NCBI RefSeq assembly: GCF_026262505.1
Contig: NC_067205.1
Location: forward strand, 7,378,001 to 7,442,000
DNA from: Trichomonas vaginalis G3
Taxonomy: Eukaryota; Parabasalia; Trichomonadida; Trichomonadidae
DNA length: 64,000 nt
Reading direction: 5' to 3'
Shown: one piece after another, positions 643-63,830 of the stretch
How positions within the stretch are numbered: the first letter of the stretch is position 1
Layout of the letters: each line of letters begins with the position of its first letter
Translations under genes and position numbers: made by a program
Notes under the pieces: model-generated
Told to the model about the DNA's origin: nothing
The model's database searches: none
What the model saw: only the letters and a program-made list of their open reading frames with translations

Positions 643-1470
643 TTATTCTTCCTCTTTGAAGTTATCGAAATATTCTGTTATTTTTTCCTTCAGTAATGTT
701 AAGTCTTCTTTGAATGTAAGTATTGTGCAACCTTTGATGTCATAGTGTGTTTGAGGAAGAGTATTTTTGACAATTTCCTTTATTTGCTCATTCGGTGTCA
801 TTGAAATCGGTAAGTTTTCACGATAGAACCAGTTTCTGTCAGATTTATATATCTTAGCTAAGTCATAAAAGCTCTTGTTGTTTCTTCTGACTAAATGCAA
901 CATAATCATTTCTTTATCTTCTTCTTTCTCCAACTCTTCAGTATATATCATATACTTATAACTCTTTTCCTTTCCTTTTGGTACTGAACGCGGTATTCTT
1001 TTCTGTATGCTTTTGTCTTTGGATTCAATGACTTCATCTTTTGCATGAAGTTTCTTTTCCATCTCTCCACGTTCTGCTTTATATAGTTCATCTAACATCA
1101 TGAAAATATAACAAGCATAACGGGGCCAAGCCCACATTGCTACAGCATTTACTAAAAGTCTATGAACATAATAACCTTTCAAACCAGGAGCCAAATTCTT
1201 GCGATTTTCATACGGAATCTCTTCCCCCGGTTTTCCGAGGGAAGCAATCATATGAGGAAATTCTTCTAAAAGTTCTTTTGTCTGTTGGTTTTCAAACCAA
1301 TGATATGCTTGCTTTGTAGAACGAAGAGCGTTCATTATACTTTGCATCTGGTACATGTCATCTTTGACTGAACGAATGAGACGTAACTGTTTGTTATACT
1401 GTATGTACTCGTATTCTTCATTTATAGCTTCATGGACTATAACTGTTGTTGTGTTCTCTGATGTTGACAT
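643..1470 (-). CDS. KilA-N domain protein K1
   Basis: This is a DNA-binding-type protein with an N-terminal KilA-N fold, including the conserved VHRLLVNAVAMWA helix, then a charged linker and a C-terminal domain of ~90 residues starting near VPKGKEK. K3 (40860-41699) shares that C-terminal domain. The start is set at the ATG ending at 1470. An in-frame extension to 1542 would translate the AT-rich promoter block that K2, K3 and K4 also carry upstream. A palindromic cassette at 1221-1244 lies in the KilA-N loop and codes for residues that differ from every other KilA-N protein here. KilA-N proteins are common in large DNA viruses and phages; the target of this one is unknown. Confidence 0.8.
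   Translation of the reverse strand: MSTSENTTTVIVHEAINEEYEYIQYNKQLRLIRSVKDDMYQMQSIMNALRSTKQAYHWFENQQTKELLEEFPHMIASLGKPGEEIPYENRKNLAPGLKGYYVHRLLVNAVAMWAWPRYACYIFMMLDELYKAERGEMEKKLHAKDEVIESKDKSIQKRIPRSVPKGKEKSYKYMIYTEELEKEEDKEMIMLHLVRRNNKSFYDLAKIYKSDRNWFYRENLPISMTPNEQIKEIVKNTLPQTHYDIKGCTILTFKEDLTLLKEKITEYFDNFKEEE
1221..1244. repeat. Palindromic cassette inside K1
   Basis: This is a 24-bp imperfect palindrome, CTTCCC...GGGAAG with a TTTT centre, in frame in the KilA-N loop of K1. Variants with the same flanks (GATTTTC, TACGGAATCTC and ATATGAGGAAATTC) but different arms lie between genes in M2 near 42760-42900. Confidence 0.75.
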
Positions 1471-3380: not shown

Positions 3381-3384
3381 AAAA

Positions 3385-3455
3385 TTCACGAGGTTAGAAA
3401 TGAGGTTAGAAATCGGGTTAGATCTAACCATCTACCCTAAACATTATTTTTGGTG
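3385..3455 (+). repeat. Dispersed 3'-end cassette, copy b
   Basis: Two GAGGTTAGAAAT units are followed by GGGTTAGATCTAACC, which is self-complementary, then CATCTACCCTAAACATTATT (core). It lies between K2 and the promoter of the 2342-3307 gene, with the A/T box nearest the K2 stop codon. Confidence 0.6.
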
Positions 3456-3480
3456 AATTCAATAAAAATAAATGGTTCAT

Positions 3481-4146
3481 TTACTCACAATATTTTTGTA
3501 CAAAACGACCCCAAACTTTTAACTTCTTTTCTGCAGTTTCTAATGCTATCTTAGCGAGTTCATATTCTCTAAATTCTCTCTTTAAATCTTCTTGTTCCCA
3601 TTGGTCTAGTTCGTATGGAGAATCTCTATAACCATAACATATCTCACGTTCATGTTCTAATTGTTTTTCATGCATTTTTCTAACTTCTTCTTCAAACAAA
3701 TGTTTTGCATTTTCTACTGTATCTTCGAGTTCTTCTTCATCTAACTTCTCATGAACTTTCTTGTCTATGGAGTCCATAATATCTTTGACATAAAATGCAT
3801 ACTTTACAGAGCACCATTCAGCAACAAAATGAACGAGGTCAGGATGTATGTAAATACCTTTGAATTCATTTATAACACCCTTAGTAAGCTCATAAAATGC
3901 TTGTTTTGAGGTTGAGCCACTTTTGGCTCGACCGTATTCTTTCAACCAAAACTCAAGAATTTCCTGCATTTTAGCACTATTGAGAAATCTGTTTAAATGG
4001 TTTAACTTTCCTGCTTCTCTTGCCATCTTTGTTGCATTAATGTAACCATCCTTGTCTCTACGTAAGACTTCAATACCATTATAAGTGCCTTTTGTGAATG
4101 TTTCGCCATTAGATTTGTTCGTGAATGTTTTTGCTTCGACTGACAT
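3481..4146 (-). CDS. KilA-N domain protein K2
   Basis: This 221-residue KilA-N protein begins with a segment ending in YINATKMAREAGK, the classic KilA-N strand/helix. A variable loop follows, then IHPDLVHFVAEWCS and an acidic helical C-terminus. K5 (43969-44631) is close in the N-terminus and the last 100 residues but differs completely in the loop. The loop carries the palindrome at 3910-3933. The start is a clear ATG after the shared promoter block. Probable DNA-binding regulator; target unknown. Confidence 0.85.
   Translation of the reverse strand: MSVEAKTFTNKSNGETFTKGTYNGIEVLRRDKDGYINATKMAREAGKLNHLNRFLNSAKMQEILEFWLKEYGRAKSGSTSKQAFYELTKGVINEFKGIYIHPDLVHFVAEWCSVKYAFYVKDIMDSIDKKVHEKLDEEELEDTVENAKHLFEEEVRKMHEKQLEHEREICYGYRDSPYELDQWEQEDLKREFREYELAKIALETAEKKLKVWGRFVQKYCE
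3910..3933. repeat. Palindromic cassette inside K2
   Basis: GGTTGAGCCA/TTGGCTCGACC arms lie in frame in the KilA-N loop of K2. On the other strand the sequence continues into CCTCAAAACAAGCATTTT. An intergenic copy of the palindrome with that flank is at 43345-43390. Confidence 0.75.
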
Positions 4147-15650: not shown

Positions 15651-16931
15651 GAGGGAATTGTTCCTTATGAGGTATACATTATAACTATATACCTCATAAG
15701 GAACAATTCCCTCTTGATAGCTGGGAAACTTTCTCTGAATAACTTATCATTTGGAGAAAGTTTCCCAGCTATCTATTAGAAACTAAAGGCTGTGAGGCAC
15801 TAATATATAATCAGTGCCTCATAGCCTTTAGTTTCTTATTAAAAACGAGAAAACTTGTTCGAAATGATAAACAATTTCGAACAAGTTTTCTCGTTTTAAG
15901 GAGGGAATTGTTCCTTATGAGGTATACAGTATGAATATATACTCATAAGGAACAATTCCCTCTTGATAGCTGGGAAACTTTCTCTGAATAACTTATCATT
16001 TGGACAAAAAGTGACACTTTACATGGCAAAAAATAGAGCCTTACTTTTGAGATACTTGAGATTGAAACTGAATCTTATGAGGCGGTGATCTTGAATCACT
16101 ACCTCATAAGGTTCAGTTTCATATAAAATTTGTTGCAATTTGTTATTCTTTTGCAATTATTTCTTATAAGATTTTACATCTTTTAGCGGGGAATGTTTGT
16201 TATCATGTATATATTATAAATATCTACACGATAACGAACATTCCTCGCTAAATTGCTGAGAAACTTTGAGGAAATGTCGAACAATTTCCTCAAAGTTTCT
16301 CAGATTTATATAGATCACTAGAGTCCCCTAGGCACTGATTCTGGTTCAGTACCTAGGAGGCTCTAGTTCTCTAACGAACTGATAAAATGTTTTTAAATTT
16401 TTGGATATTGCTACCTGTGAAGCACTGACTTCAAGTCAGTACCTCACAGGTAGCAATTACATTGAAAGATGGGAGAAACTTTGTCCGAATGTTAAACTAT
16501 TCGGACAAAGTTTCTCACATTTGTAGTGGAGATGGAAGGCTTTGAGGTATATTGTATTAATATATACCCCAAAGCCTTCCATCTCCACTTGAAAGTGTCC
16601 AAACTTTGGGTTAATACTTTGCAATTAACCCAAAGTTTGGACACTTTCTAGAAGGAATTGGAGGGTAAGAGATATACATTCATATGGTATATCTCTTACC
16701 CTCCAATTCCTTCTTAAAATGGGAGAAACTTTGTCCGAATGTTAAACTATTCGGACAAAGTTTCTCCCATTTTTTGAAGGAATTGGAGGCTATGAGATAC
16801 TGATGCAATGTCAGTAACTCATGGCTTCCAATTCCTTCCTAAAACTCATAAAAGTGGACATTACATGCATATAAAATTTGACATGTAAAGTCCACTTTTT
16901 GTGAGCGGGGATTTGACTCCGTCAAATCCCC
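15651..16931. repeat. Hairpin array 1: ~19 consecutive long hairpins
   Basis: Back-to-back inverted repeats with stems of about 20-28 bp and loops of about 10-18 bases fill the region. Examples: 15651-15713 (26-bp perfect stem), 15716-15773, 15778-15836, 15842-15897, 15901-15962, 16064-16120, 16185-16249, 16256-16303, 16318-16366, 16407-16458, 16470-16517, 16526-16588, 16591-16648 (25 bp perfect), 16650-16714 (28 bp perfect), 16718-16771, 16776-16838, 16845-16903 and 16907-16931. Two types broadly alternate, one with TGAGGYAYTGA-like apices and one with GAGAAACTTTGTCCGAAT-like arms. Between members of a type both arms change together. No protein is plausible. Confidence 0.9.
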
Positions 16932-30393: not shown

Positions 30394-30399
30394 TAAATA
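30394..30399. repeat. Target site duplication of M2, left
   Basis: TAAATA lies immediately outside the left terminal repeat and is repeated at 54891-54896. Six-base duplications are the Maverick norm. Confidence 0.8.
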
Positions 30400-30467
30400 A
30401 AAAAAAAAAAAAAAAAAAGGTATTGGGGCTTCCAGGCGCGTTGCGCCCTCTAGCCCCGAAGATGTTT
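30400..30467 (+). repeat. Left terminal inverted repeat of M2
   Basis: After an A run and GGTATT comes GGGGCTTCCA-GGCGC-GTT-GCGCC-CTCTAGCCCC, then GAAGATGTTT. The right end has the same arms, but its inner hairpin is GGCAC-GAA-GTGCC, so both sides of the inner stem differ together between the two ends. Confidence 0.88.
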
Positions 30468-30498
30468 AGTATAAAACCGCTTTTTAACTTCACTTAAA

Positions 30499-39410: not shown

Positions 39411-40285
39411 ATGTTAGAAAAAAAGTTTGCTGACATTGACAAGAAATTTGAGAATGTTTTAAATAAGAACAAGAGGAAGTTGGAAAATGCTCAGATAAAA
39501 CCCATACATGACAAGTTCTTATTTGCTCAGAATGGTATAACAGGTCTAATCGCACCACCTGGGTCGGGTAAGACTTTCACTTATCTTAAAATGGCTGCAC
39601 AACAACAAGAACTAGATGAGAAGAACCCATTCTATGAGTTAGTAGTCATTTGTAGTACTTCGGGTCAATTTGACCAAACCGTCAATTCGTTCAAAGATAT
39701 TATAAAAAGTCTAAGTTAGTATGTATAAAAGATACTGAGTTGTTAGATTGGATAAAGAAGTACCAAAGAAGAGTTTTGAAGTACAATGCTATAAATGAGT
39801 ATGTCAATTCTAAGTTTAAAGACCCAAATGAGGAAATGCAGAGAATATTAGAGAAGAAACACTTCAGAAACAAACAGAAAGAGATAGAATACATTTCGAA
39901 GAAATTGCAATCTTACGATTGGAAGACTTACCCTCATAGATGTCTTCTTATCTTAGACGACTTTGCTTCTCATCCTTTGTTAAAGAATAGAGAACAAGAC
40001 ATGTGTCGAATTCTCAAGAAGCTCAGACACTTTAACATTTCAGTTGTCATTTGTGTACAGACAGCAAAGAGTTTAAGTAAGGATGTAAAGAGAATACTTA
40101 CTGATATCATACTTTTCCCCGGATTGTCCGAAGACGATTTCATGGAACTTATGAAAGAGTCCATGGCAGGTAAGTTTGACAGACATGAACTATGGGAGAA
40201 GTACAAAGTCATACAAGACCCTCATACTTCTTTCAGAATTCACATCTACGCGAACAAAGTTCAAATTGTAAAAAGTCAAGCGTAA
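39411..40285 (+). CDS. Packaging ATPase (A32/FtsK-HerA type), frameshifted
   Basis: Walker A APPGSGKTFTY lies near residue 50, and after a frame change near 39706 in an A run the frame continues with Walker B LLILDDFASH, a VVICVQTAKS sensor strand and a C-terminal region. The full protein would be ~290 residues, as in M1. It would pump element DNA into capsids. The one-base change may be a decay mutation or a sequence error. Confidence 0.85.
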
Positions 40286-40289
40286 AAAT

Positions 40290-40859
40290 GTAAGTGTTTG
40301 AGTCTTAGTCTGTTGTGGTGCTGGGGCTGTCGGTTCTTCTGGCTTTGGAATGGACTCGGTTGGTGGTACGTCGGACATTCGTTTGTGTCCTGTCGGAAGG
40401 AAGAACTTTTCCTGTCGGAAGGAAGAACTTTTCCTGTCGGAAAGAAAAACTTTTCCTGTCGGAAAGAAAAACTTTTCCTGTCGGAAAGAAAAATTTTTCC
40501 TGTCGGAAAGAAAAATTTTTCCTGTCGGAAAGAAAAATTTTTCCTGAAGGTCGGCCAAAAAGTTCTCAATTTTCGAAAATTTGAATGGTTTACGGACGGA
40601 CAACTGGAAAAATTTTTCCTGTAGGAAGGAAAATTTTTTCCTGTAGGAAGGAAAATTTTTTCCTGTAGGAAGGAAAATTTTTTCCTGTTGGAAGGAAAAA
40701 CTTTTCCTGTAGGAAGGAAAATTTTTTCCTGTAGGAAGGAAAATTTTTTCCTGTAGGAAGGAAGGACTCGGAATGCCAGAAGGACTCGGACAAGACAATT
40801 TACCATCTAGAGCTACCTGAAACATCTTTGGTGTCAAGCTTGAAAAATAAATGGTTCAT
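40290..40859. repeat. Tandem array of ~22-bp self-complementary units
   Basis: From ~40385 to 40770, units such as GGAAAGAAAAACTTTTCC with CTGTCGG or CTGTAGG spacers repeat ~15 times. GGAAR and YTTCC parts are complementary, so each unit can fold. The array ends next to the K3 stop. The segment near 40365 (TCGGACATTCGTTTGTG) recurs three times at 44670-44740. Open frames on both strands here are repeat artefacts. Confidence 0.8.
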
Positions 40860-41699
40860 TTACTCTTCTTCTTTGAAGTTGTCAAAATACTCTGTTATCT
40901 TTTCCTTCAGTAGCGGTAAATCTTCTTTGAATGTAAGTATTGTACAACCTTTCATATCATAGTGTGTTTGAGGTAACGTATCTTGAACTATCTGTTTAAC
41001 ATCTTCATTTGGTGTCATTGAAATCGGTAAGTTTTCGCGATAGAACCAATTTCTGTCAGATTTGTAAATCTTAGCTAAGTCGTAAAAGCTTTTGTTGTTT
41101 CTTCTGACTAAATGCAACATAACCATATCTCTGTCTTCTTCATTTTCCATCTCTTCAGTGTAAATCATATACTTATAGTTCTTTTCCTTTCCTTTTGGTA
41201 CCGAACGTGGTATTCTTTTCTGTATGTTTTTGTCTTTTGCTTCAAGCTTGTTCTCTAGCTCTTCACGTTCTTGTCTATGAAGTTCGTCAAGAAGTCTGTA
41301 AATATACCAAGCGTAACGAGGTGAAGCCCACATTGCTACAGCATTTACAAGAAGTCTATGTACATACCAACCTCTCAAACCATTTGGCAAATTTTCACGA
41401 TTTTCATAGAGTTTTGGCGACTGGGGTTTTTCTCCCACTCGAGTTTTTGCGACTACGAGAAAATCCGTAGTCGAATTTTCAGCTTCATTTAATAGTTCAA
41501 TAGTGCTTTGGTTCCTAAACCAGTCTTGTGGTTTCTTAGTATCTGGAGCAAAACATGCTGTCAAAATACTTTGCATTTGGTACATGTCATCTTTGACCGA
41601 ACGAATGAGACGTAACTGTTTGTTATACTGAACCCACTCGTATTCTTCACTTATGGCTTCATGAACGATAGCAGTTGTTGTGTTCTCTGTTGTTGACAT
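40860..41699 (-). CDS. KilA-N domain protein K3
   Basis: Nearly the same protein as K1 (643-1470): the same N-terminal start, the same VHRLLVNAVAMWA helix and the same C-terminal domain. The loop between the NQST helix and that helix is different (RVGEKPQSPKLYEN). Two palindromes at 41417-41442 and 41450-41473 lie in that loop. The start is the ATG ending at 41699, with the shared promoter block upstream. Likely DNA-binding. Confidence 0.85.
   Translation of the reverse strand: MSTTENTTTAIVHEAISEEYEWVQYNKQLRLIRSVKDDMYQMQSILTACFAPDTKKPQDWFRNQSTIELLNEAENSTTDFLVVAKTRVGEKPQSPKLYENRENLPNGLRGWYVHRLLVNAVAMWASPRYAWYIYRLLDELHRQEREELENKLEAKDKNIQKRIPRSVPKGKEKNYKYMIYTEEMENEEDRDMVMLHLVRRNNKSFYDLAKIYKSDRNWFYRENLPISMTPNEDVKQIVQDTLPQTHYDMKGCTILTFKEDLPLLKEKITEYFDNFKEEE
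41417..41473. repeat. Two palindromic cassettes inside K3
   Basis: GCGACTGGGG-TTTTT-CTCCCACTCG and CGACTACG...CGTAGTCG. The first has at least three intergenic relatives at 42590-42730 with arms altered on both sides (GCGACTACGG...CCGTACTCGC). Confidence 0.75.
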
Positions 41700-41765
41700 T
41701 TCTGTTCTTACATACAAAATAAAAAAATAAAAAAAAAATAAAATTAGCGTTATTTTCTATCTTGT
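41700..41765 (-). promoter_or_regulatory. Conserved upstream block of K3
   Basis: Same T-rich block with TTTTGTATGTAAGAACAGAA before the ATG as K2 and K4; about 20 bp more upstream reads TTATACAAGATAG. Confidence 0.5.
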
Positions 41766-41788
41766 ATAAAAGACCAAAAATAAACGCT

Positions 41789-42403
41789 TTACATGTATTT
41801 TTCAGCAACTTCGTCAAATACTTTTATAGCTTTGTCGATCTCATCTACTTCAAACGTTTCTTTACCTCTCGTGGGAGCACCATACATTTTCTCAAACTTT
41901 TCAAGTAGTTCTGTTTCAGCAGCTCTCATATCGTTAACAAACGCAACCTTAACTCTATTGACTATACTGTCATATCTTTGAGTTATATTAAATGTTCTTC
42001 CTATCTTATATCTCTTTGTATTGAAGTCCTTCGGTTTCTGAACGATGTAAAGTAAGCCTTCACTGCAACGTTCAGTATCGAATGAACCATATGTTATGAA
42101 ATTATATCCAACAACTGGGTCAATCCAGAACAAAACTACTGGTATAAGACTTTTGTCTATAAGATATGTTCTTGTTCCATAGAATCTTACCGATATCATC
42201 AGCTCAGGATTTCTTGTCAAAATTTTCTGAGTTGAAGCATTTTTAACCCAGTCGTGTGCTTTCTTTCCTTCAGATAGTGTTAAAATGTCTGACAAAGAAT
42301 ATTTTTTGTATTTCTTTGAGTATCTTACGTTTAAATCACCAATTCTAACCACTTTGGTCTCATTGTCTATCTTTTTAACTGTTTCAAACTCAGTGCTTGT
42401 CAT
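41789..42403 (-). CDS. KilA-N protein K4 with T5orf172-like C-terminal domain
   Basis: 204 residues. A KilA-N part with KAHDWVKNASTQKIL and a short uninterrupted loop is followed by a C-terminal domain GLLYIVQKP...KIGRTFNITQRYDS...ETELLEKFEKMYG. This resembles the T5orf172/GIY-YIG-like domain often joined to KilA-N or Bro proteins. It has no palindromic cassette and so shows what the KilA-N loop looks like without one. Promoter block as in K3. Confidence 0.82.
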   Translation of the reverse strand: MTSTEFETVKKIDNETKVVRIGDLNVRYSKKYKKYSLSDILTLSEGKKAHDWVKNASTQKILTRNPELMISVRFYGTRTYLIDKSLIPVVLFWIDPVVGYNFITYGSFDTERCSEGLLYIVQKPKDFNTKRYKIGRTFNITQRYDSIVNRVKVAFVNDMRAAETELLEKFEKMYGAPTRGKETFEVDEIDKAIKVFDEVAEKYM

Positions 42404-42482
42404 TTCCTGTTCTTACATACAAAATAAAAAAATAAAAAAAATAAAAACTAGCGTTAATTTTATTTTTTCTATCTTGTATAAA
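42404..42482 (-). promoter_or_regulatory. Conserved upstream block of K4
   Basis: TTTTGTATGTAAGAACAGGA before the ATG, a T-rich tract and TTTATACAAGATAG upstream, matching K3. Confidence 0.5.
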
Positions 42483-43165
42483 AGATATGATTTCATAGAG
42501 TTTTTTTACGAAGTGCAAAAGTTCTCTTCGTCAAAAAATACAGTTATATCATGAAATTTGGTCATTTTTTCACGATTTTCATGAGTTTTAGGCGACTACG
42601 GTTTTTCCCGTACTCGCAATTTTTTACGATTTTCATGAGTTTTAGGCGACTACGGTTTTTCCCGTACTCGCATTTTTTCACGATTTTCATGAGTTTTAGG
42701 CGACTACGGTTTTTCTCCCACTCGCATTTTTTCACGATTTTCATGTGTTTTTTTCACGATTTTCGTACGGAATCTCGTTCCTCGGTTTTCCGAGGGTCGC
42801 AATTTTTCACTGTTTTCATAGAGTTTTTTTACGATTTTCGTACGGAATCTCGACCCGCGGTTTTCTACCGGTCGCAAACATATGAGGAAATTCATGAAAT
42901 TTGGTCATTTTTTCATGATTTCAGGGATTTTTTTTACGAAGAGTAAAAGTTCACTTCGTCAAAAAAATACAGTTATATCATGAAATTTGGTCATTTTTTC
43001 ACGATTTCATAGAGTTTTTTTATGAAGTGCAAAAGTTCACTTCGTCAAAAAAATACAGTTATATCATGAAATTTGGTCATTTTTTCATGATTTCATAGAG
43101 TTTTATGCAAGGCCGAAAAAAGTCGGGGTAGCAAACATATGAGGAAATTCATGAAATTTGGTCAT
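42483..43165 (+). repeat. Intergenic array of KilA-N loop cassettes
   Basis: No real gene is present. Repeated ACGATTTTC plus palindromic variants: GCGACTACGG...CCGTACTCGC (three copies, ~42590-42730), a TCGTTCCTCGG...CCGAGGG copy near 42775 and a TCGACCCGCGG...CCGGTCG copy near 42848. ATTTGGTCATTTTTTCACG and AAAAAATACAGTTATATCATG segments repeat at ~80 bp. Flanks equal those of the cassettes inside K1 and K3. Confidence 0.85.
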
Positions 43166-43169
43166 TTAC

Positions 43170-43300
43170 TCAGCAAAAATATATTTTAGGTGGAACCAGG
43201 TCCCTCGGTCCCTCGGTCCCTCGGTCAACTAACATCTTTTTGAAAATGGTGACAACATGACATTTTGACAACAACACAGGAGATAGATTTCTTCGTATAT
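43170..43300 (-). repeat. Dispersed 3'-end cassette, copy e
   Basis: On the minus strand: GTCAAAATGTCATGTTGTCA, three GACCGAGG units and CACCTAAAATATATTTTTGC. Related to copies f, g and h. Confidence 0.6.
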
Positions 43301-43344
43301 GTTTTGGTCCGGGAACAACAAAATTCAAGAGTTTTGTGTGTTTT

Positions 43345-43815
43345 CTACGGTGGAGCCAAAAATGGCTCGACCTCAAAACAAGCATTTTCGTGAAGAATAT
43401 ACCACCCCGCGGAATTCCGCGGGTTGCTTTTTATACAAAACATTGACGAAGAAGTCTTGGCAAAACAAGCATTTTGTGAAGAATATACCAACCGCCGGAA
43501 TTCCGGCGGTTGCTTTTTATACAAAACATTTACGATGAAAGTCTTGACAAAACAAGCATTTCGTGAAGAATATACCACCCCGCGGAATTCCGGCGGTTGC
43601 TTTTTATACAAAACATTTACGATGAAAGTCTTGACAAAACATGTACGATGAAAGTCTTGACAAAACATGTACGATGAAAGTCTTGACAAAACATGTACGA
43701 TGAAAGTCTTGACAAAACATGTACGATGAAAGTCTTGACAAAACAAGCATTTTGTGAAGAATATACCAACCCGCGGAATTCCGGCGGTTGCTTTTTATAC
43801 AAAACATTTACGAAG
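43345..43815 (+). repeat. Intergenic array of K2/K5-type loop cassettes
   Basis: The first unit has GAGCCAAAAATGGCTC and CCTCAAAACAAGCATTTT as in K2, then joins GTGAAGAATATACC and CCGCGGAATTCCGCGG as in K5. Three further K5-type units differ in the palindrome (CCGCCGGAATTCCGGCGG or CCCGCGGAATTCCGGCGG). They alternate with a 25-bp TACGATGAAAGTCTTGACAA spacer repeated up to five times. Confidence 0.85.
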
Positions 43816-43819
43816 AAAG

Positions 43820-43965
43820 TCTATTTCCTGTGTTGTTGTCAAAATGTCATGTTGTCACACTTTTTCAGAGAAGTTAAAATGACCTGGTGACCTGGTGACG
43901 TAGTGACACCTAAAAACCATCTAACCTAAAATATATTTTTGCTGAATTCAATAAAAAAAATGGTT
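43820..43965 (+). repeat. Dispersed 3'-end cassette, copy f
   Basis: GTCAAAATGTCATGTTGTCA, CAGAGAAGTTAAAATGACC, GGTGACCTGGTGACGTAGTG and the box AACCTAAAATATATTTTTGC lie just beyond the K5 stop codon. Confidence 0.65.
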
Positions 43966-43968
43966 CAT

Positions 43969-44631
43969 TTACTCACAATATTTTTGTACAAAAGGACCCC
44001 AACCTTTTAACCTCTCTTCTGCAGCTTCTAATGAAACTTTAGCGAGTTCATATTCTCTAAATTCTCTCTTTAAATCTTCTTGTTCCCATTGGTTTAGTTC
44101 GTATGGAGAGTCTCTATAACCAGAACATATCTCACGTTCATGTTCTATTTGTTTTTCATGCATTTTTCTAACTTCTTCTTCGAACAAAGGTTTAGCATTC
44201 TCTACTGTATCTTCAAGTTCTTCTTCATCTAATTTCTCATGAACTTTCTTGTCTATGGAGTCCAGAATTTTTCCAACTGCTATGCAATATTTTGGAGAAG
44301 CCCACATTGCTATATAGTTTACGAGTCTTGGGTCTACATACGTTCCTCTAACCTGTTTGATTTCATCGGGAATTCCTGCATGAACATTGTATAAAAAGCA
44401 ACCCGCGGAATTCCGCGGGTTGGTATATTCTTCACAAAATGCCTTAAAATACTCTTCCCAGGACTTATTTTCCAACAACCTTCTAAAGTCTTTCCTAAAC
44501 TGCTGACAGATCTTTGTTGCATTTATATAACCATCCTTGTCTCTACGTAAGACTTCAATACCGTTGTAAGTGCCTTTTGTGAATGTTTCGCCATTAGATT
44601 TGTTCGTGAACGTTTTTGCTTCGACTGTCAT
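43969..44631 (-). CDS. KilA-N domain protein K5 with in-frame cassette
   Basis: Relative of K2: MTVEAKTFTNKSNGET start and a C-terminal ~100 residues closely alike. The start is set at the ATG ending at 44631. Between the ENKSWEEYFK helix and the VNYIAMWA helix lies FCEEYTNPRNSAGCFLY, encoded by the palindrome at 44400-44421 and its flanks. The intergenic units at 43380-43800 and 44755-44820 have the same coding-strand sequence. The insertion keeps the frame. Confidence 0.85.
   Translation of the reverse strand: MTVEAKTFTNKSNGETFTKGTYNGIEVLRRDKDGYINATKICQQFRKDFRRLLENKSWEEYFKAFCEEYTNPRNSAGCFLYNVHAGIPDEIKQVRGTYVDPRLVNYIAMWASPKYCIAVGKILDSIDKKVHEKLDEEELEDTVENAKPLFEEEVRKMHEKQIEHEREICSGYRDSPYELNQWEQEDLKREFREYELAKVSLEAAEERLKGWGPFVQKYCE
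44400..44421. repeat. Palindromic cassette inside K5
   Basis: AACCCGCGGAATTCCGCGGGTT (core CCCGCGGAATTCCGCGGG) is perfectly self-complementary. The flanks GAAGAATATACC and GCTTTTTATAC match those of the intergenic arrays. Confidence 0.85.
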
Positions 44632-44666
44632 ACTGTTCTTACAATAAAAATAAAAAATATTTTTTG

Positions 44667-44880
44667 GTGGGACGTCGGACATTCGTTTGTGGCTTAACCG
44701 TCGGACATTCGTTTGTGGCTTAACCGTCGGACATTCGTTTGTGGCTCGACCTCAAAACAAGCATTTTGTGAAGAATATACCAACCGCCGGAATTCCGGCG
44801 GTTGCTTTTTTATACAAAATTCAACGGGTGAAAGAATACGATGAAGAAGTCTTGACAAAACATATACGATGAAATTCATG
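44667..44880 (+). repeat. Short intergenic cassette array
   Basis: Three copies of a ~27-bp unit with TCGGACATTCGTTTGTGGCT, then a K5-type unit (CAAAACAAGC, GAAGAATATACC, CCGCCGGAATTCCGGCGG) and two ACATATACGATGAAA copies. Confidence 0.75.
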
Positions 44881-44884
44881 ACAA

Positions 44885-45028
44885 AACATATACGATGAAA
44901 GTCTATCTCCTGTGTTGTTGTCAAAATGTCATGTTGTCACACTTTTTCAGAGAAGTTAAAATGACCTGGGGACCGAGGGACCGAGGGACCTGGTTCGCCT
45001 AAAAACCATCTACCCTAAAATATATTTT
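44885..45028 (+). repeat. Dispersed 3'-end cassette, copy g
   Basis: Like copy f but with GGGGACCGAGGGACCGAGGG units and ACCCTAAAATATATTTTTC directly against the stop codon of the next minus-strand gene. Confidence 0.65.
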
Positions 45029-45925: not shown

Positions 45926-46510
45926 TTAAAATGGTATGCCATATAGCTTCTTGAATTTGTTAAGAAGTATTCGAACGCATTTTCCATCTGTATCTCTAGC
46001 GTTTACATGAGCATGGCCTGCCTTAGTAAAATATACTTGTAATTTCCTATAGTTTACGCCGGTATAAAAGTAGAAAGAGTCTTGTTCTTCGCTATAGTAG
46101 TAAAACTCAAACGTATGCTTACCATAGTCTGTAATTTCAATTGTTTCATCTTCTAGTTCGTCGACAAATTCGAATACAATATCTCCAATTTTGCTTTTGT
46201 TCTTACTGTTTTCAGAACAAGTGACCCAACGCAAGTTTTCAAGTCTATTGTCATTTCTTATATGGTTTATATGGTCTACAAAAGGTAAATTGTTAGGATT
46301 CAGTATAAAATGAGTTGCAATGACAACATGTTTAAGATAGTGTTTTCCACCCATATTCATAATAGCATATCCGTCATTTCGCTCCCATTCGCTTAAAACT
46401 CTTTTTGTCTTTTTGTTTCTGACTTCAAATGACTCACAACAGTGAATTTCATATTTCTCATCTAACAAACAAGTTTCCCAACGGTCTTCTCCAACAAACT
46501 CAGCGTACAT
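45926..46510 (-). CDS. HNH endonuclease-like protein
   Basis: ~194 residues from the ATG ending at 46510, which follows TTTTATTTGAA. Central HNH motif HVVIATHFI...FVDHINHIRNDNRLENLRW with ENSKNK, typical of NUMOD4/HNH homing-type nucleases, and a C-terminal domain rich in Tyr/Phe. It cuts DNA by family. Located directly downstream of the PolB gene on the same strand. It may be a free-standing homing endonuclease living in the element. Confidence 0.82.
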   Translation of the reverse strand: MYAEFVGEDRWETCLLDEKYEIHCCESFEVRNKKTKRVLSEWERNDGYAIMNMGGKHYLKHVVIATHFILNPNNLPFVDHINHIRNDNRLENLRWVTCSENSKNKSKIGDIVFEFVDELEDETIEITDYGKHTFEFYYYSEEQDSFYFYTGVNYRKLQVYFTKAGHAHVNARDTDGKCVRILLNKFKKLYGIPF

Positions 46511-58088: not shown

Positions 58089-61000
58089 ATGAACAAAAAC
58101 GGAACCGCTAAAATGAATGATAATCAAATTAGAGCAGAAGGTAGAAGGTTATTTAAACGCTTCTATAACATTCCTGATGGTGTTAATCCTAAAACTCGTA
58201 GAAGCTATTTAAATGAAGCAATAGATTCATATGAAGGGTTTGACATTTCATCAGAAAGTGAGAGATTAGCGAGAATGTTAAATGTTAATATTGATTTCTA
58301 TTATTGTGATCCTCAACCAGAAGACGTGGACATAAATAAGGTAGACTTTCCATTAGTGGAATCAATAATGATAGATCCAGAATTTGAAACAATAAATATT
58401 TTATTAACACAGAGTCCATGTGGAAAACTTCACGCTGACAGAATAACAGACGTTGAAGCACTCACCGGCTATAAAGTTTGTCCATATTGTAAAGAAGAAG
58501 TTTATTCAATCCGTGATGATCCAGAAAGGAAAAACCAAAGAAGATTTTTAAAGCATTGTGAGAAATGTAAAGAAAATAATGGAAGATTAATTCAAGACGT
58601 TCAATTGCAAAATACCCAGCAACCATATGCACCACATATTACGAAACAGAAGATATATCAGTGGTTATTAGCTCACAATTTGCAGAAATATTATAAACCG
58701 ACAAGATATTATATTACTTTTGACTTCGAAACATTAGAGACTAAAGAAGAATTACAACTTTCTGAGTGTGCAACTTTGAACGCTTACTTAAAACCATTCA
58801 TGGTATCATCAACGGTTAAATTAAATGATAAAACATATACGAGGAATTTTTGCTTAACTTCGAGTGATTCTTTTATTTCTGACTGGATTGAGTTTTTATT
58901 TTCAACCTGTTCATTAGTTGTTGAATCAAATATGAGTCAATACGATGAATTATTGAAGTCGCAAACGGACTCTTTGAGTCCTGAAGGTCTTTCAGACCAA
59001 ACGGCGGGGACTTTGTCCCATACATTAAATGAAAAACAGAAGGAAGCATTTAAAGAACTTCTAGATGAGGAATTCAATAAAGTGAATATCATAGGTTTTA
59101 ATTCGGGAAAGTTTGATTTAAATTTAATTCTTCGTGATTTAAATACTGCAAAATGGAAAATAAAATCAATGCTGGGTTCATCTTCACAATTTAAGCAAAT
59201 CATTGTAAAGAAAACAAACGTTCCATATGAATTGAGATTTATTGACATCAGAAATTATATAGCGGGTGGGACATTAGACCAATTCACTCAAGATTTCGGA
59301 AACAATAAATCACGTGTTAAATCCTTTTTCCCTTATCAATTTATCACGTGGGAAAATTACGAAGAAGAATTATATAAAGTGGAACCATTCACTCAAGATT
59401 CATTTTATTCAGCATTAACCCAAGAAACTATATCAGATAGTGATTATCAAATATATCTCAATGATACTAAAAACTTTAAGAATAGATTAGAATATTTTAT
59501 TCATTATTGCAATAAAGATGTTGAAATTATGATTGACCCAATTGATAAAATTATTGAAGAAACATTTGTTTATAAAATTGATATGCTTCATAATCTTTCT
59601 TTATCATCAAATGCTTCAATGATTCGTTACGCTTTAGCATATAAAGACTTTAATCCTAATGAAAAATATCCTGAGGAAGAGATAGAATCAATTTTTGAAT
59701 TAACGAAAAAGTATTGGAAATATAAAATTGAATCATATAAGAAACAAGATGAAAAAGCAGAAAGGGATACTAAAAATAATGTTTCAATGGATGATTTTCA
59801 ATACTATCACGATTTAATCCTTTCATCTAAATGCAAAATGTGTGGTAAAGCGTTTACATATGCAAATAAACCAACATTAGATAGAATCGATAATGAAAAA
59901 CCACATACTAAAGAAAATTGTCAGTTATTGTGTTGTTATTGCAATGTCGTAAAATCAAATAAAGATGAAGATGTTCAACGTTTAAGAATCAATTTAAGAA
60001 ATTATGCATTAAAAAATAATTTACCAATGACTTTAGATTCAGTTGAAGCTTATCACATTCTCCGTAATGGAATTACTGGTGGTCTATCAAATGTTCAACA
60101 TCGTGTTAATCTTAAAGGAATCACGCACATTAATAAACTTTCATATAGTCCAGAAACTAAAACTGTATCAAATGAGGACACCACCAACATTATGACTCAT
60201 TTCGTTGGAGTTGACTTTAATTCATTATATCCTTCATCATTTTCATCTAATCCTCATGATTTCATTCAATATACTGACCATAAAATGTATATGCCGGGAA
60301 GATTGAATGGTGTTATCATTTGTGATACAGCAACAAAGAAAGCAAAAGCACTGGGAATAATTAAGAAGAAAAATACTTTATTCGTGGCTGAAGTAAAGGG
60401 TCACATTGATGAAAAATACATTAATGATTACATAAACTTTTTACCGATAATAAGAAACTTAGATATTATCACAGATGAAAAAACAATTGGCGGTTTTATG
60501 TATAATTACATGAAATCAAACAATCTACCAGTTGACCAGAAACAGAGGAAATTAACTCAGTTAGCATCAACACACAACCAATATCAACCATTTTCTTCTT
60601 ATTATCTTTGGTATCTAATAGATAGATTTCATTTTATCATCGATGATATTCAATCAATTTTAACATTTACGAAAAACACTTGTTTTAATGAATTTGCGAA
60701 CAAATTTATGAACGAAAGACAAAAGGCTGAATTAGAAGGAAATAAAGGAAAAGGTTTATTTTGCAAAATTTCACTTAATGGATCATATGGTTACGATGCA
60801 ATGAATACACAAAATTACGCAAAGACTAAAATAATGAAAGCACAGAAGGCACGCGTTGCATGTATGTCAAATAAGTTGAAAAATATAAGAGAAATAGGTG
60901 AAGATACATATCAAGTGATGCTCAAAGATAGATTTTATAGATGTGATACATGTTTACAAGAGGCATTTTTTACTTTAGATAACGCAAAATACTGGTATTT

Positions 61001-61592
61001 AGTTTTCATTTATGATTTTATGTATAAATGCATGAATGTTAATCGTTTTCATTTCATTGAAGGTGATACTGATTCATCTTATTGGGCAATCGCTGGCGAC
61101 CCAAATCTTCCTAACACTCAAGCATTTCAAGCAATTGTTACCGATAAACAATTTTATGATAAAAACATTTTCAAATTCGCACCTTTTGATTTCTTCTGTT
61201 TTGATGAGAAATTTAAACCTAAATTAAAGAATAAAGCTGAAGAAAAAGCACATGAGAAGAAGTTATTGGGTTTAGCAATTGAGAAACAAGGTGATAACAT
61301 GGTTGCTTTATGCCCTAAGTGTTATACATCATTCAACGGTTCAATTGATGGAAGTGATTTTAAAAAGATTGCACAAAAAATGAAAGGTGTTAGTTTACGA
61401 CAAAATAAACAATTAACACCTAAAAATTATTTGGATATAATAAATGATAAAGTGATATTTGATGGTCAGAATATTAATTTACAACTTAAAAACGGGTCAA
61501 TGACTCGCTTAACAATCGGTAAGACTGCATTAACAGGGGCACACACTAAGGCTGTATGTTGTGAAAATGGATGTTGTATGCCATTTATTTAA
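58089..61592 (+). CDS. polB: Family B DNA polymerase with embedded HNH domain
   Basis: 1167 residues. A zinc-type CPYC...CEKC pair (~135-160) is followed by exonuclease motifs DFETLETKEEL, NIIGFNSGKFDLN and YCNKDVEI. Residues ~582-626 form an HNH/zinc module (CKMCGKAF...LDRIDNEKPH...LLCCYCN). Then come palm motif A VGVDFNSLYPSSF, motif B KISLNGSYGYDA and motif C EGDTDSSYW, all intact. Residues 293-310 are encoded by three mini-hairpins in a row. It replicates the element with proofreading. The HNH may be a homing-type insertion or a fused nuclease. A T-rich promoter precedes the ATG. Confidence 0.92.
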   Translation: MNKNGTAKMNDNQIRAEGRRLFKRFYNIPDGVNPKTRRSYLNEAIDSYEGFDISSESERLARMLNVNIDFYYCDPQPEDVDINKVDFPLVESIMIDPEFETINILLTQSPCGKLHADRITDVEALTGYKVCPYCKEEVYSIRDDPERKNQRRFLKHCEKCKENNGRLIQDVQLQNTQQPYAPHITKQKIYQWLLAHNLQKYYKPTRYYITFDFETLETKEELQLSECATLNAYLKPFMVSSTVKLNDKTYTRNFCLTSSDSFISDWIEFLFSTCSLVVESNMSQYDELLKSQTDSLSPEGLSDQTAGTLSHTLNEKQKEAFKELLDEEFNKVNIIGFNSGKFDLNLILRDLNTAKWKIKSMLGSSSQFKQIIVKKTNVPYELRFIDIRNYIAGGTLDQFTQDFGNNKSRVKSFFPYQFITWENYEEELYKVEPFTQDSFYSALTQETISDSDYQIYLNDTKNFKNRLEYFIHYCNKDVEIMIDPIDKIIEETFVYKIDMLHNLSLSSNASMIRYALAYKDFNPNEKYPEEEIESIFELTKKYWKYKIESYKKQDEKAERDTKNNVSMDDFQYYHDLILSSKCKMCGKAFTYANKPTLDRIDNEKPHTKENCQLLCCYCNVVKSNKDEDVQRLRINLRNYALKNNLPMTLDSVEAYHILRNGITGGLSNVQHRVNLKGITHINKLSYSPETKTVSNEDTTNIMTHFVGVDFNSLYPSSFSSNPHDFIQYTDHKMYMPGRLNGVIICDTATKKAKALGIIKKKNTLFVAEVKGHIDEKYINDYINFLPIIRNLDIITDEKTIGGFMYNYMKSNNLPVDQKQRKLTQLASTHNQYQPFSSYYLWYLIDRFHFIIDDIQSILTFTKNTCFNEFANKFMNERQKAELEGNKGKGLFCKISLNGSYGYDAMNTQNYAKTKIMKAQKARVACMSNKLKNIREIGEDTYQVMLKDRFYRCDTCLQEAFFTLDNAKYWYLVFIYDFMYKCMNVNRFHFIEGDTDSSYWAIAGDPNLPNTQAFQAIVTDKQFYDKNIFKFAPFDFFCFDEKFKPKLKNKAEEKAHEKKLLGLAIEKQGDNMVALCPKCYTSFNGSIDGSDFKKIAQKMKGVSLRQNKQLTPKNYLDIINDKVIFDGQNINLQLKNGSMTRLTIGKTALTGAHTKAVCCENGCCMPFI
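58967..59019. repeat. Three in-frame mini-hairpins in polB
   Basis: GGACTC-TTT-GAGTCC, GGTCT-TTC-AGACC and GGGAC-TTT-GTCCC in tandem, each with a three-base loop. They encode a Ser/Gly/Thr-rich loop between exonuclease motifs I and II. Confidence 0.88.
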
Positions 61593-63734: not shown

Positions 63735-63830
63735 GTGTCACTACGTCACCATGTGTCACTCGGTTAATTAACTTCTCTGAAAAAATGAGACAACATGACA
63801 TTTTGACAACACAGCAGGATTAATGCAAAA
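63735..63830 (-). repeat. Dispersed 3'-end cassette, copy h
   Basis: On the minus strand: TGTTGTCAAAATGTCATGTT, CAGAGAAGTTAATT and GTGACACATGGTGACGTAG. It is the same block as copy f in M2 (43828-43910) and lies upstream of the small gene and downstream of the last gene. Confidence 0.65.

Follow-up and report, generated by a model that had tools for sequence, protein, structure and literature searches.

What keeps a palindrome inside a coding sequence, at one loop of a KilA-N protein? The question is raised by a 64,000-nucleotide stretch of Trichomonas vaginalis G3 DNA, hereafter the window (C3:7378001-7442000 of the 180.9 Mb assembly). Copies of Maverick elements carry there four KilA-N genes, K1, K2, K3 and K5, each with a palindrome in the segment coding for one loop, and variants of these palindromes stand in tandem in the spacers between genes. 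An initial annotation of this DNA had suggested either that the spacer arrays store loop variants, which are then copied into genes, or that palindromic micro-elements insert in frame at this site. Our preferred answer, to which we give a probability of about 0.45, is that the gene retains the stem as a structure or site at the nucleic-acid level, that the modules duplicate in tandem, and that the spacer arrays are a decaying spill-over.

Hairpins in the KilA-N loops

The palindromes were recovered in all four loops, with slightly revised coordinates (Table 1). Among 2,858 segments of 48 nucleotides in the 37 open reading frames (ORFs) of the window, the K5 stem had the top hairpin score, followed by an AT-rich repeat ORF (40190-40825) and then by K3. 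The K5 hairpin was reached by none of 300 synonymous simulations. K4, described initially as a KilA-N gene without palindrome, is indeed not among the top segments, but its assignment to KilA-N did not hold, as it is a T5orf172 protein with a KilA-N score under the cut-off. The AT-rich ORF, which belongs to the same Maverick, holds a second coding palindrome array, made of 22-bp tandem units with a GGAAAAATTTTTCC palindrome (40388-40763).

Perfect stems were then compared, in 12 cases, with 5,000 draws in which the protein was fixed and synonymous codons were drawn by local usage. Some cases came from fetched loci, of which L009-L043 were chosen by an array unit and L044-L048 by the K5 loop; together with the window, they do not sample the genome at random. 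No draw reached the stem of K5, of K3 hairpin 1, of K3 in L022, or of K1 in L020, L030 and L031, while 1 draw did so for L012 and 58 for K2. The stem was not significant for K3 hairpin 2 (1,765 draws), nor for K1 of the window (2,051 draws), whose wobble lies inside the stem; the K1 form of L009 and L023 was reached by 351 and 342 draws. RNA folding z values were -5.5 for K5, -5.05 for K1, -4.3 for K2, -2.9 and -2.6 for K3, and -0.38 for L009. We conclude that several loops form hairpins beyond what protein sequence and codon usage explain, in most of the forms tested.

Paired changes in the two arms

Eight distinct K1 gene loops were compared. In these, 91.3% of cells were paired and the covariation score was 0.393, against 0.143 after shuffling of the arms, and none of 500 shuffles reached either value; when the arms were slid as a control, the score did not exceed 0.094. 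Such shuffles leave shared descent in place. Some of the K1 paired changes are silent (GCT..GTA versus GCG..GTC), and others alter amino acids on both sides of the stem. Among the first 100 of 244 K1-type hairpins, taken from genes and spacers alike, 65 had all three outer pairs perfect, compared to 23.6 after shuffling.

For K5, a hand count of places with the gene-type right flank showed that the inner seven pairs match in 62 of 68; these correspond to three alleles, found 51, 10 and 1 times, and 6 places were mismatched. The stem uses CGG, though this arginine codon occurs only 5 times in the 37 ORFs. A tree of 33 K5 genes, built with the loop left out, was heavily mosaic, and events were not counted on it. 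By our reading, the CCGCC alleles of K5 seem to be linked to sites on either side, some 55 bp upstream and 12 bp downstream, and for this reason look like old haplotypes rather than swaps of 24 bp. The K5 covariation amounts in effect to one paired swap and minor forms. Support for arm covariation is fair for K1, moderate for K5 and absent for K2.

Spacer arrays, compared with the genes

Tandem variants of the loop palindromes were found in the spacers as initially described, both for the K1/K3 types and for the K2/K5 types, and so was a chimeric K2/K5 unit: the first unit of the window array (43346-43438) fuses a loop resembling that of K2 to one resembling that of K5 at a common GCATTTT. K5-type units of about 86 bp adjoin K5, on both sides in many loci, and are antisense to K5 in 123 of 127 cases. 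In the loci read, K1-type units lie before K4, on the same strand as the K1/K3 genes. A segment related to the 86-bp units of the K1/K3 spacer (42500-42535) folds weakly (z -1.4). The arrays are not whole dead KilA-N genes, an interpretation that would have left no place for a donor role, as amino acids 40-109 account for 77 of the 91 K5 matches that lie elsewhere than in the gene.

Pairing is relaxed in the K5-type arrays relative to the genes. In the 40 fetched loci and the window, arms were perfect in 28 of 32 K5 gene loops and in 59 of 168 array units of standard length (Fisher test, 3e-8; one gene loop and two array units were excluded by length). Shuffling of the arms gives 34 perfect units among the 168, meaning that some linkage is left in the arrays.

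If the genes took up loop variants from the arrays, exact units should be common to both, and they are: even an imperfect unit, CGACCGGTAG/CCGCGGGTCG, is present in 3 of 10 K1 genes and in 6 of 47 spacer units, and the arrays consist mostly of the loop stretch. To this extent the donor proposal of the initial annotation stands. A gene should also resemble its own array, and no clear excess was observed: the gene loop was found in the array of its own locus at 15 of 32 loci, versus 12.8 after shuffling (P 0.17), and 17 of 127 array units matched their own gene, versus 13.7 expected (P 0.09). Moreover, mixed arms are frequent in arrays and rare in K5 genes, and in the window all three 54-bp units of the K3 type have a TAG in the gene frame. 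We regard a donor system as quite unlikely.

The other initial proposal, of mobile palindromes landing repeatedly in the loop as the in-frame elements of Rickettsia do, would account for several unlike palindromes at one loop and for the in-frame addition of modules in K3 (see below). It fares poorly on the flanks. The exact 18-bp core of K5 has 283 copies in the genome, 273 of which have the exact KilA-N left flank, and the exact 18-bp core of K1 has 458 copies, 368 of which have the exact KilA-N right flank; no empty site, that is, a K5-type gene devoid of the loop unit, was seen among 34. As nearly all K5 cores share one KilA-N flank, it is unlikely that the K5 palindrome roams, and repeated landing as a general explanation appears very improbable to us.

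The strongest rival is mutational upkeep, whereby the hairpin would fold back during replication and one arm be copied from the other, tandem units arising by slippage, with no function needed. Paired arm changes and tandem units in gene and spacer are what it predicts, and the window contains a gene for a viral type B polymerase. Viral type B polymerases are protein-primed and strand-displacing, which we count in its favour. However, near-identical array units in the same elements are mostly imperfect, and it leaves unexplained why two gene families that have diverged both carry palindromes at this loop, and why few are seen among the remaining window ORFs tested. We hold this explanation to be possible, if doubtful.

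Modular loops in K3

Among 120 listed of 490 K3-related proteins, 74 distinct loops were counted. Loop lengths, in amino acids, were 42 (79 proteins), 60 (32), 48 (4), 30 (3), 49 (1) and 66 (1). At the DNA level, K3 genes hold one or two tandem loop units of 53-54 bp; two such units were found in L011, L017 and L019, two of these three genes being out of frame by length. By the same measure, with anchors matched allowing errors, 6 of 9 K3-type loops (window included) keep the frame of the window gene. The modularity of K3 loops, with tandem gain in module steps, is real. Ungapped identity in the family is 93% on the N side and 84% on the C side, a figure depressed by a 7-residue indel; loops of the same length (989 of the 2,000 pairs sampled) are 82% identical. 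In substitutions the loop is thus little above its C side, and the main difference lies in module content and length.

Copies L011, L017 and L034 have frame shifts and are broken genes. This is one of the points in favour of plain decay, by which repeated loops would result from slippage in a disordered loop of dead proviral genes, the palindromes being incidental; the near silence of these genes in laboratory culture, considered below, is another. The codon simulations and the matching of arms speak against it, as does the use of the rare arginine codon CGG in the K5 stem, and we consider it unlikely.

Family relations and place of the loop in the protein

K1, K2, K3 and K5 score 79.8-95.6 bits for KilA-N (Pfam PF04383, curated cut-off 23.8 bits), and this was their sole Pfam match above cut-off, the PARCEL model not being among those run. 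It had been proposed that one loop alone differs between these proteins. This is roughly so for K1 and K3, which differ most in the loop and the residues directly before it, but not for K2 and K5. There, the ends are nearly identical and about 80 middle residues, from amino acid 41, are strongly different, so that an entire half-domain, and not just the loop, was exchanged between the two. The DNA-binding halves of K2 and K5 are thus unlike despite common ends.

In a structural model, the K5 loop is predicted to be a disordered linker next to the wing, the part with which the relatives PCG2 and Mbp1 read DNA. A Foldseek search gave no PDB match at E <=0.001, the best being Mbp1 (1bm8, 8.5e-3). 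The predicted structure of the K3 family was unusable (mean predicted local distance difference test, pLDDT, 44, with 14 sequences), so that the place of the loop in K1 and K3 rests on alignment. Searching IMG/VR with an alignment of 21 proteins (K5 of the window and 20 relatives) yielded 6 pattern-matching stretches, none of which was confirmed. Protein loops of Tritrichomonas and Histomonas (PNSG) could be palindromic in their DNA; these were not counted as evidence.

The predicted position of the loop segment beside the wing raises the idea of a self-addressed DNA reader, in which the DNA coding for the wing region would be a putative palindromic site bound by the same KilA-N protein or its relatives. 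A change in the site would then alter the reader at once, and the adjoining arrays would be further sites. According to PMC4333399, the wing of PCG2, a KilA-N/APSES protein, reads CGCG, with two molecules per DNA. In the main K5 allele, a perfect dyad contains two copies of CGCG. The minor K5 alleles and K1 have no CGCG, and such a reader seems highly improbable.

Maverick setting and other features of the window

The start of the K2/K5 genes occurs 1,043 times in the genome (at most 1 mismatch), and the K2 loop pattern has 1,063 genomic matches. Maverick copies in the window carry an integrase (rve; 42.8 bits in the left copy for a cut-off of 32.6, and 30.3 bits, under cut-off, in the right copy), an A32-like ATPase (32.5 bits), a D5-like protein (Pox_D5, 22.3 bits) and the KilA-N genes, and the polymerase gene lies in a separate stretch (DNA_pol_B_2, 29.3 bits, 58089-61592). 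Inverted repeats of 77 nucleotides with 84% identity, of the terminal type, are found at 30394-30470 and 54831-54907. The markers of Maverick/Polinton elements are therefore present, as a set seen across neighbouring copies.

Table 1. Coordinates and strands of the loop hairpins, KilA-N genes and spacer units in the window
Feature	Position	Strand	Remarks
K1 loop hairpin	1220..1245	-	10-bp stem, G-U wobble, AAAA loop
K2 loop hairpin	3910..3933	-	6-bp core GAGCCA-AAAG-TGGCTC
K3 loop hairpin 1	41450..41473	-	
K3 loop hairpin 2	41418..41441	-	imperfect; not significant versus codon simulation
K5 loop palindrome	44399..44422	-	perfect, 24 bp; codes T71-C79 of K5 model (residue 1 is the codon starting at 44634)
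K1	643..1470	-	KilA-N gene of left Maverick, 275 amino acids; Pfam KilA-N 1.6e-22
K2	3481..4146	-	KilA-N gene, 221 amino acids; Pfam KilA-N 3e-23
K3	40860..41699	-	KilA-N gene with modular loop, 279 amino acids; Pfam KilA-N 2e-27
K4	41789..42403	-	T5orf172 protein, 6.2e-8; KilA-N 0.024 (14.9 bits, under cut-off)
K5	43969..44682	-	KilA-N gene; Pfam KilA-N 8e-26
K3-type spacer array	42566..42751	-	54-bp loop units, 3.4 copies; TAG in gene frame
K1-type hairpin unit in spacer	42775..42800	-	arms of two types
K1-type spacer unit	42850..42875	-	identical to loop of 3/10 K1 genes
86-bp tandem units	42892..43104	.	2.5 copies
K2/K5-type spacer array	43345..43822	+	strand opposite to K5
K5-type unit in spacer	44755..44820	+	upstream of K5
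Spacer motif	43184..43290	.	inverted partner of 43817-43907 and 44899-45005

Several other features were recorded. Inverted repeat motifs, several of them with TGTCAAAATGTCATGTTGTC, lie in the spacers at 43184-43290, 43817-43907, 44899-45005, 2251-2326, 3382-3457 and 63768-63819, close to the ends of genes and around DUF3839 or the site it once occupied, and could be a recombination or end signal. K2 and K5 each adjoin DUF3839 in their own element. The repeat CGTCGGACATTCGTTTGTG is found at the K5 start (44673-44750) and again near 40368, and perfect long hairpins, with arms of mostly 18-28 bp, cluster outside the KilA-N genes at 15651-16773. An HNH endonuclease gene (45926-46510) lies beside DUF7777 in 13 of the 40 fetched loci, and loci with cut ends may conceal more; it is an optional gene, perhaps a homing endonuclease. 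Elsewhere in the genome (G000:C1:6079751-6081638), three K2-type KilA-N starts stand in tandem, spaced by 843-844 bp.

Discussion

We propose that a hairpin-forming palindromic module codes for the loop beside the presumed DNA-reading wing of Maverick KilA-N proteins. Its self-complementarity would be kept in the gene since a DNA or RNA stem acts there, as an operator-like site or a transcript hairpin, and we lean towards a site or structure controlling the KilA-N gene. The protein loop would tolerate the changes of the stem. Loops would evolve through paired changes in the arms, through entire modules being gained or lost in tandem, as in K3, and through recombination in a family of some 1,000 members. 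The module would also have been copied to adjoining spacers and grown there into tandem arrays of 54, 75 and 86 bp, with mixed arms and less constraint. We infer that the stem is maintained by selection and not by mutation, and likewise that it has a role.

A number of observations weigh against this proposal. Four of 10 K1 genes, that of L009 for example, have a poorly pairing GGTAG/CCGCG form, and perfect arms are not significantly more frequent in K1 genes (3/10) than in K1-type spacer units (5/47, P 0.14). K1 pairs changed on both sides (4, versus 2.4 expected, reached by 38 of 500 shuffles) and further K1 pair types (6 versus 4.8, 107 of 500) are not exceptional. The outermost K5 pair matches in 9 of 17 looked-up places, that is, without covariation, and none was seen for K2 beside its fixed 6-bp core, among the 100 of 1,063 places listed. 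The copies are close and recombine, which leaves few independent paired changes, and the mixing of arms in arrays may be due to recombination between tandem units rather than to lost selection. Finally, PMC7845603 reports 1 of 3,183 Maverick KilA-N genes above the RNA-Seq expression threshold in laboratory culture, and such near silence is a point against a present role of the stem. Small RNAs, described there as 34 nt long, cover 2,546 of these 3,183 genes according to the same report, and the antisense arrays could be relevant to this coverage.

Should the stem indeed act in the gene, one stretch of DNA would obey two rules, one of the protein, for a loop beside a DNA-reading wing, and one of the nucleic acid, for a stem, and paired changes can alter amino acids on both sides of it. 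As a single genome contains about 1,000 copies, this rule is open to statistics and to simple binding assays. It may shed light on how virus-like elements regulate themselves or stay separate from rival copies, and it offers a natural system for the origin and spread of coding palindromes.

Comparison with known systems

A literature search, in which subscription journals were thinly covered, returned no report of coding palindromes for KilA-N or Mavericks. In silent-cassette systems, such as Neisseria pilin and the variant surface glycoproteins of trypanosomes, variant copies are kept away from the expressed gene. Here, by contrast, genes show no clear excess of matches to their own arrays, and the arrays are mixed, partly with stops. 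PCG2 and Mbp1 have the same KilA-N/APSES winged helix-turn-helix fold, the varied loop described here falling, by prediction, beside the wing; the available part of PMC4333399 does not mention coding palindromes or module variation.

The palindromic elements of Rickettsia and Wolbachia are similar in that palindromic DNA stands in coding frames, in unstructured parts of proteins, as cited in PMC2996958. However, these elements are found in assorted genes, whereas the palindromes described here lie in one loop of one protein family, with arms that tend to covary and with tandem arrays in the spacers. PARCELs (PMC2996958) resemble them by tandem coding repeats with dyad symmetry, a link to mobile elements and a possible function as reservoirs of variants. 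They differ by a 25-residue motif in other proteins and by imperfect dyads, and Trichomonas and KilA are unmentioned in the main text of that paper. Coding palindromes as such are thus known from Rickettsia, Wolbachia and PARCELs; what is new in these Mavericks is the fixed place in the protein, the matching of arms, the modular loops and the arrays on the opposite strand.

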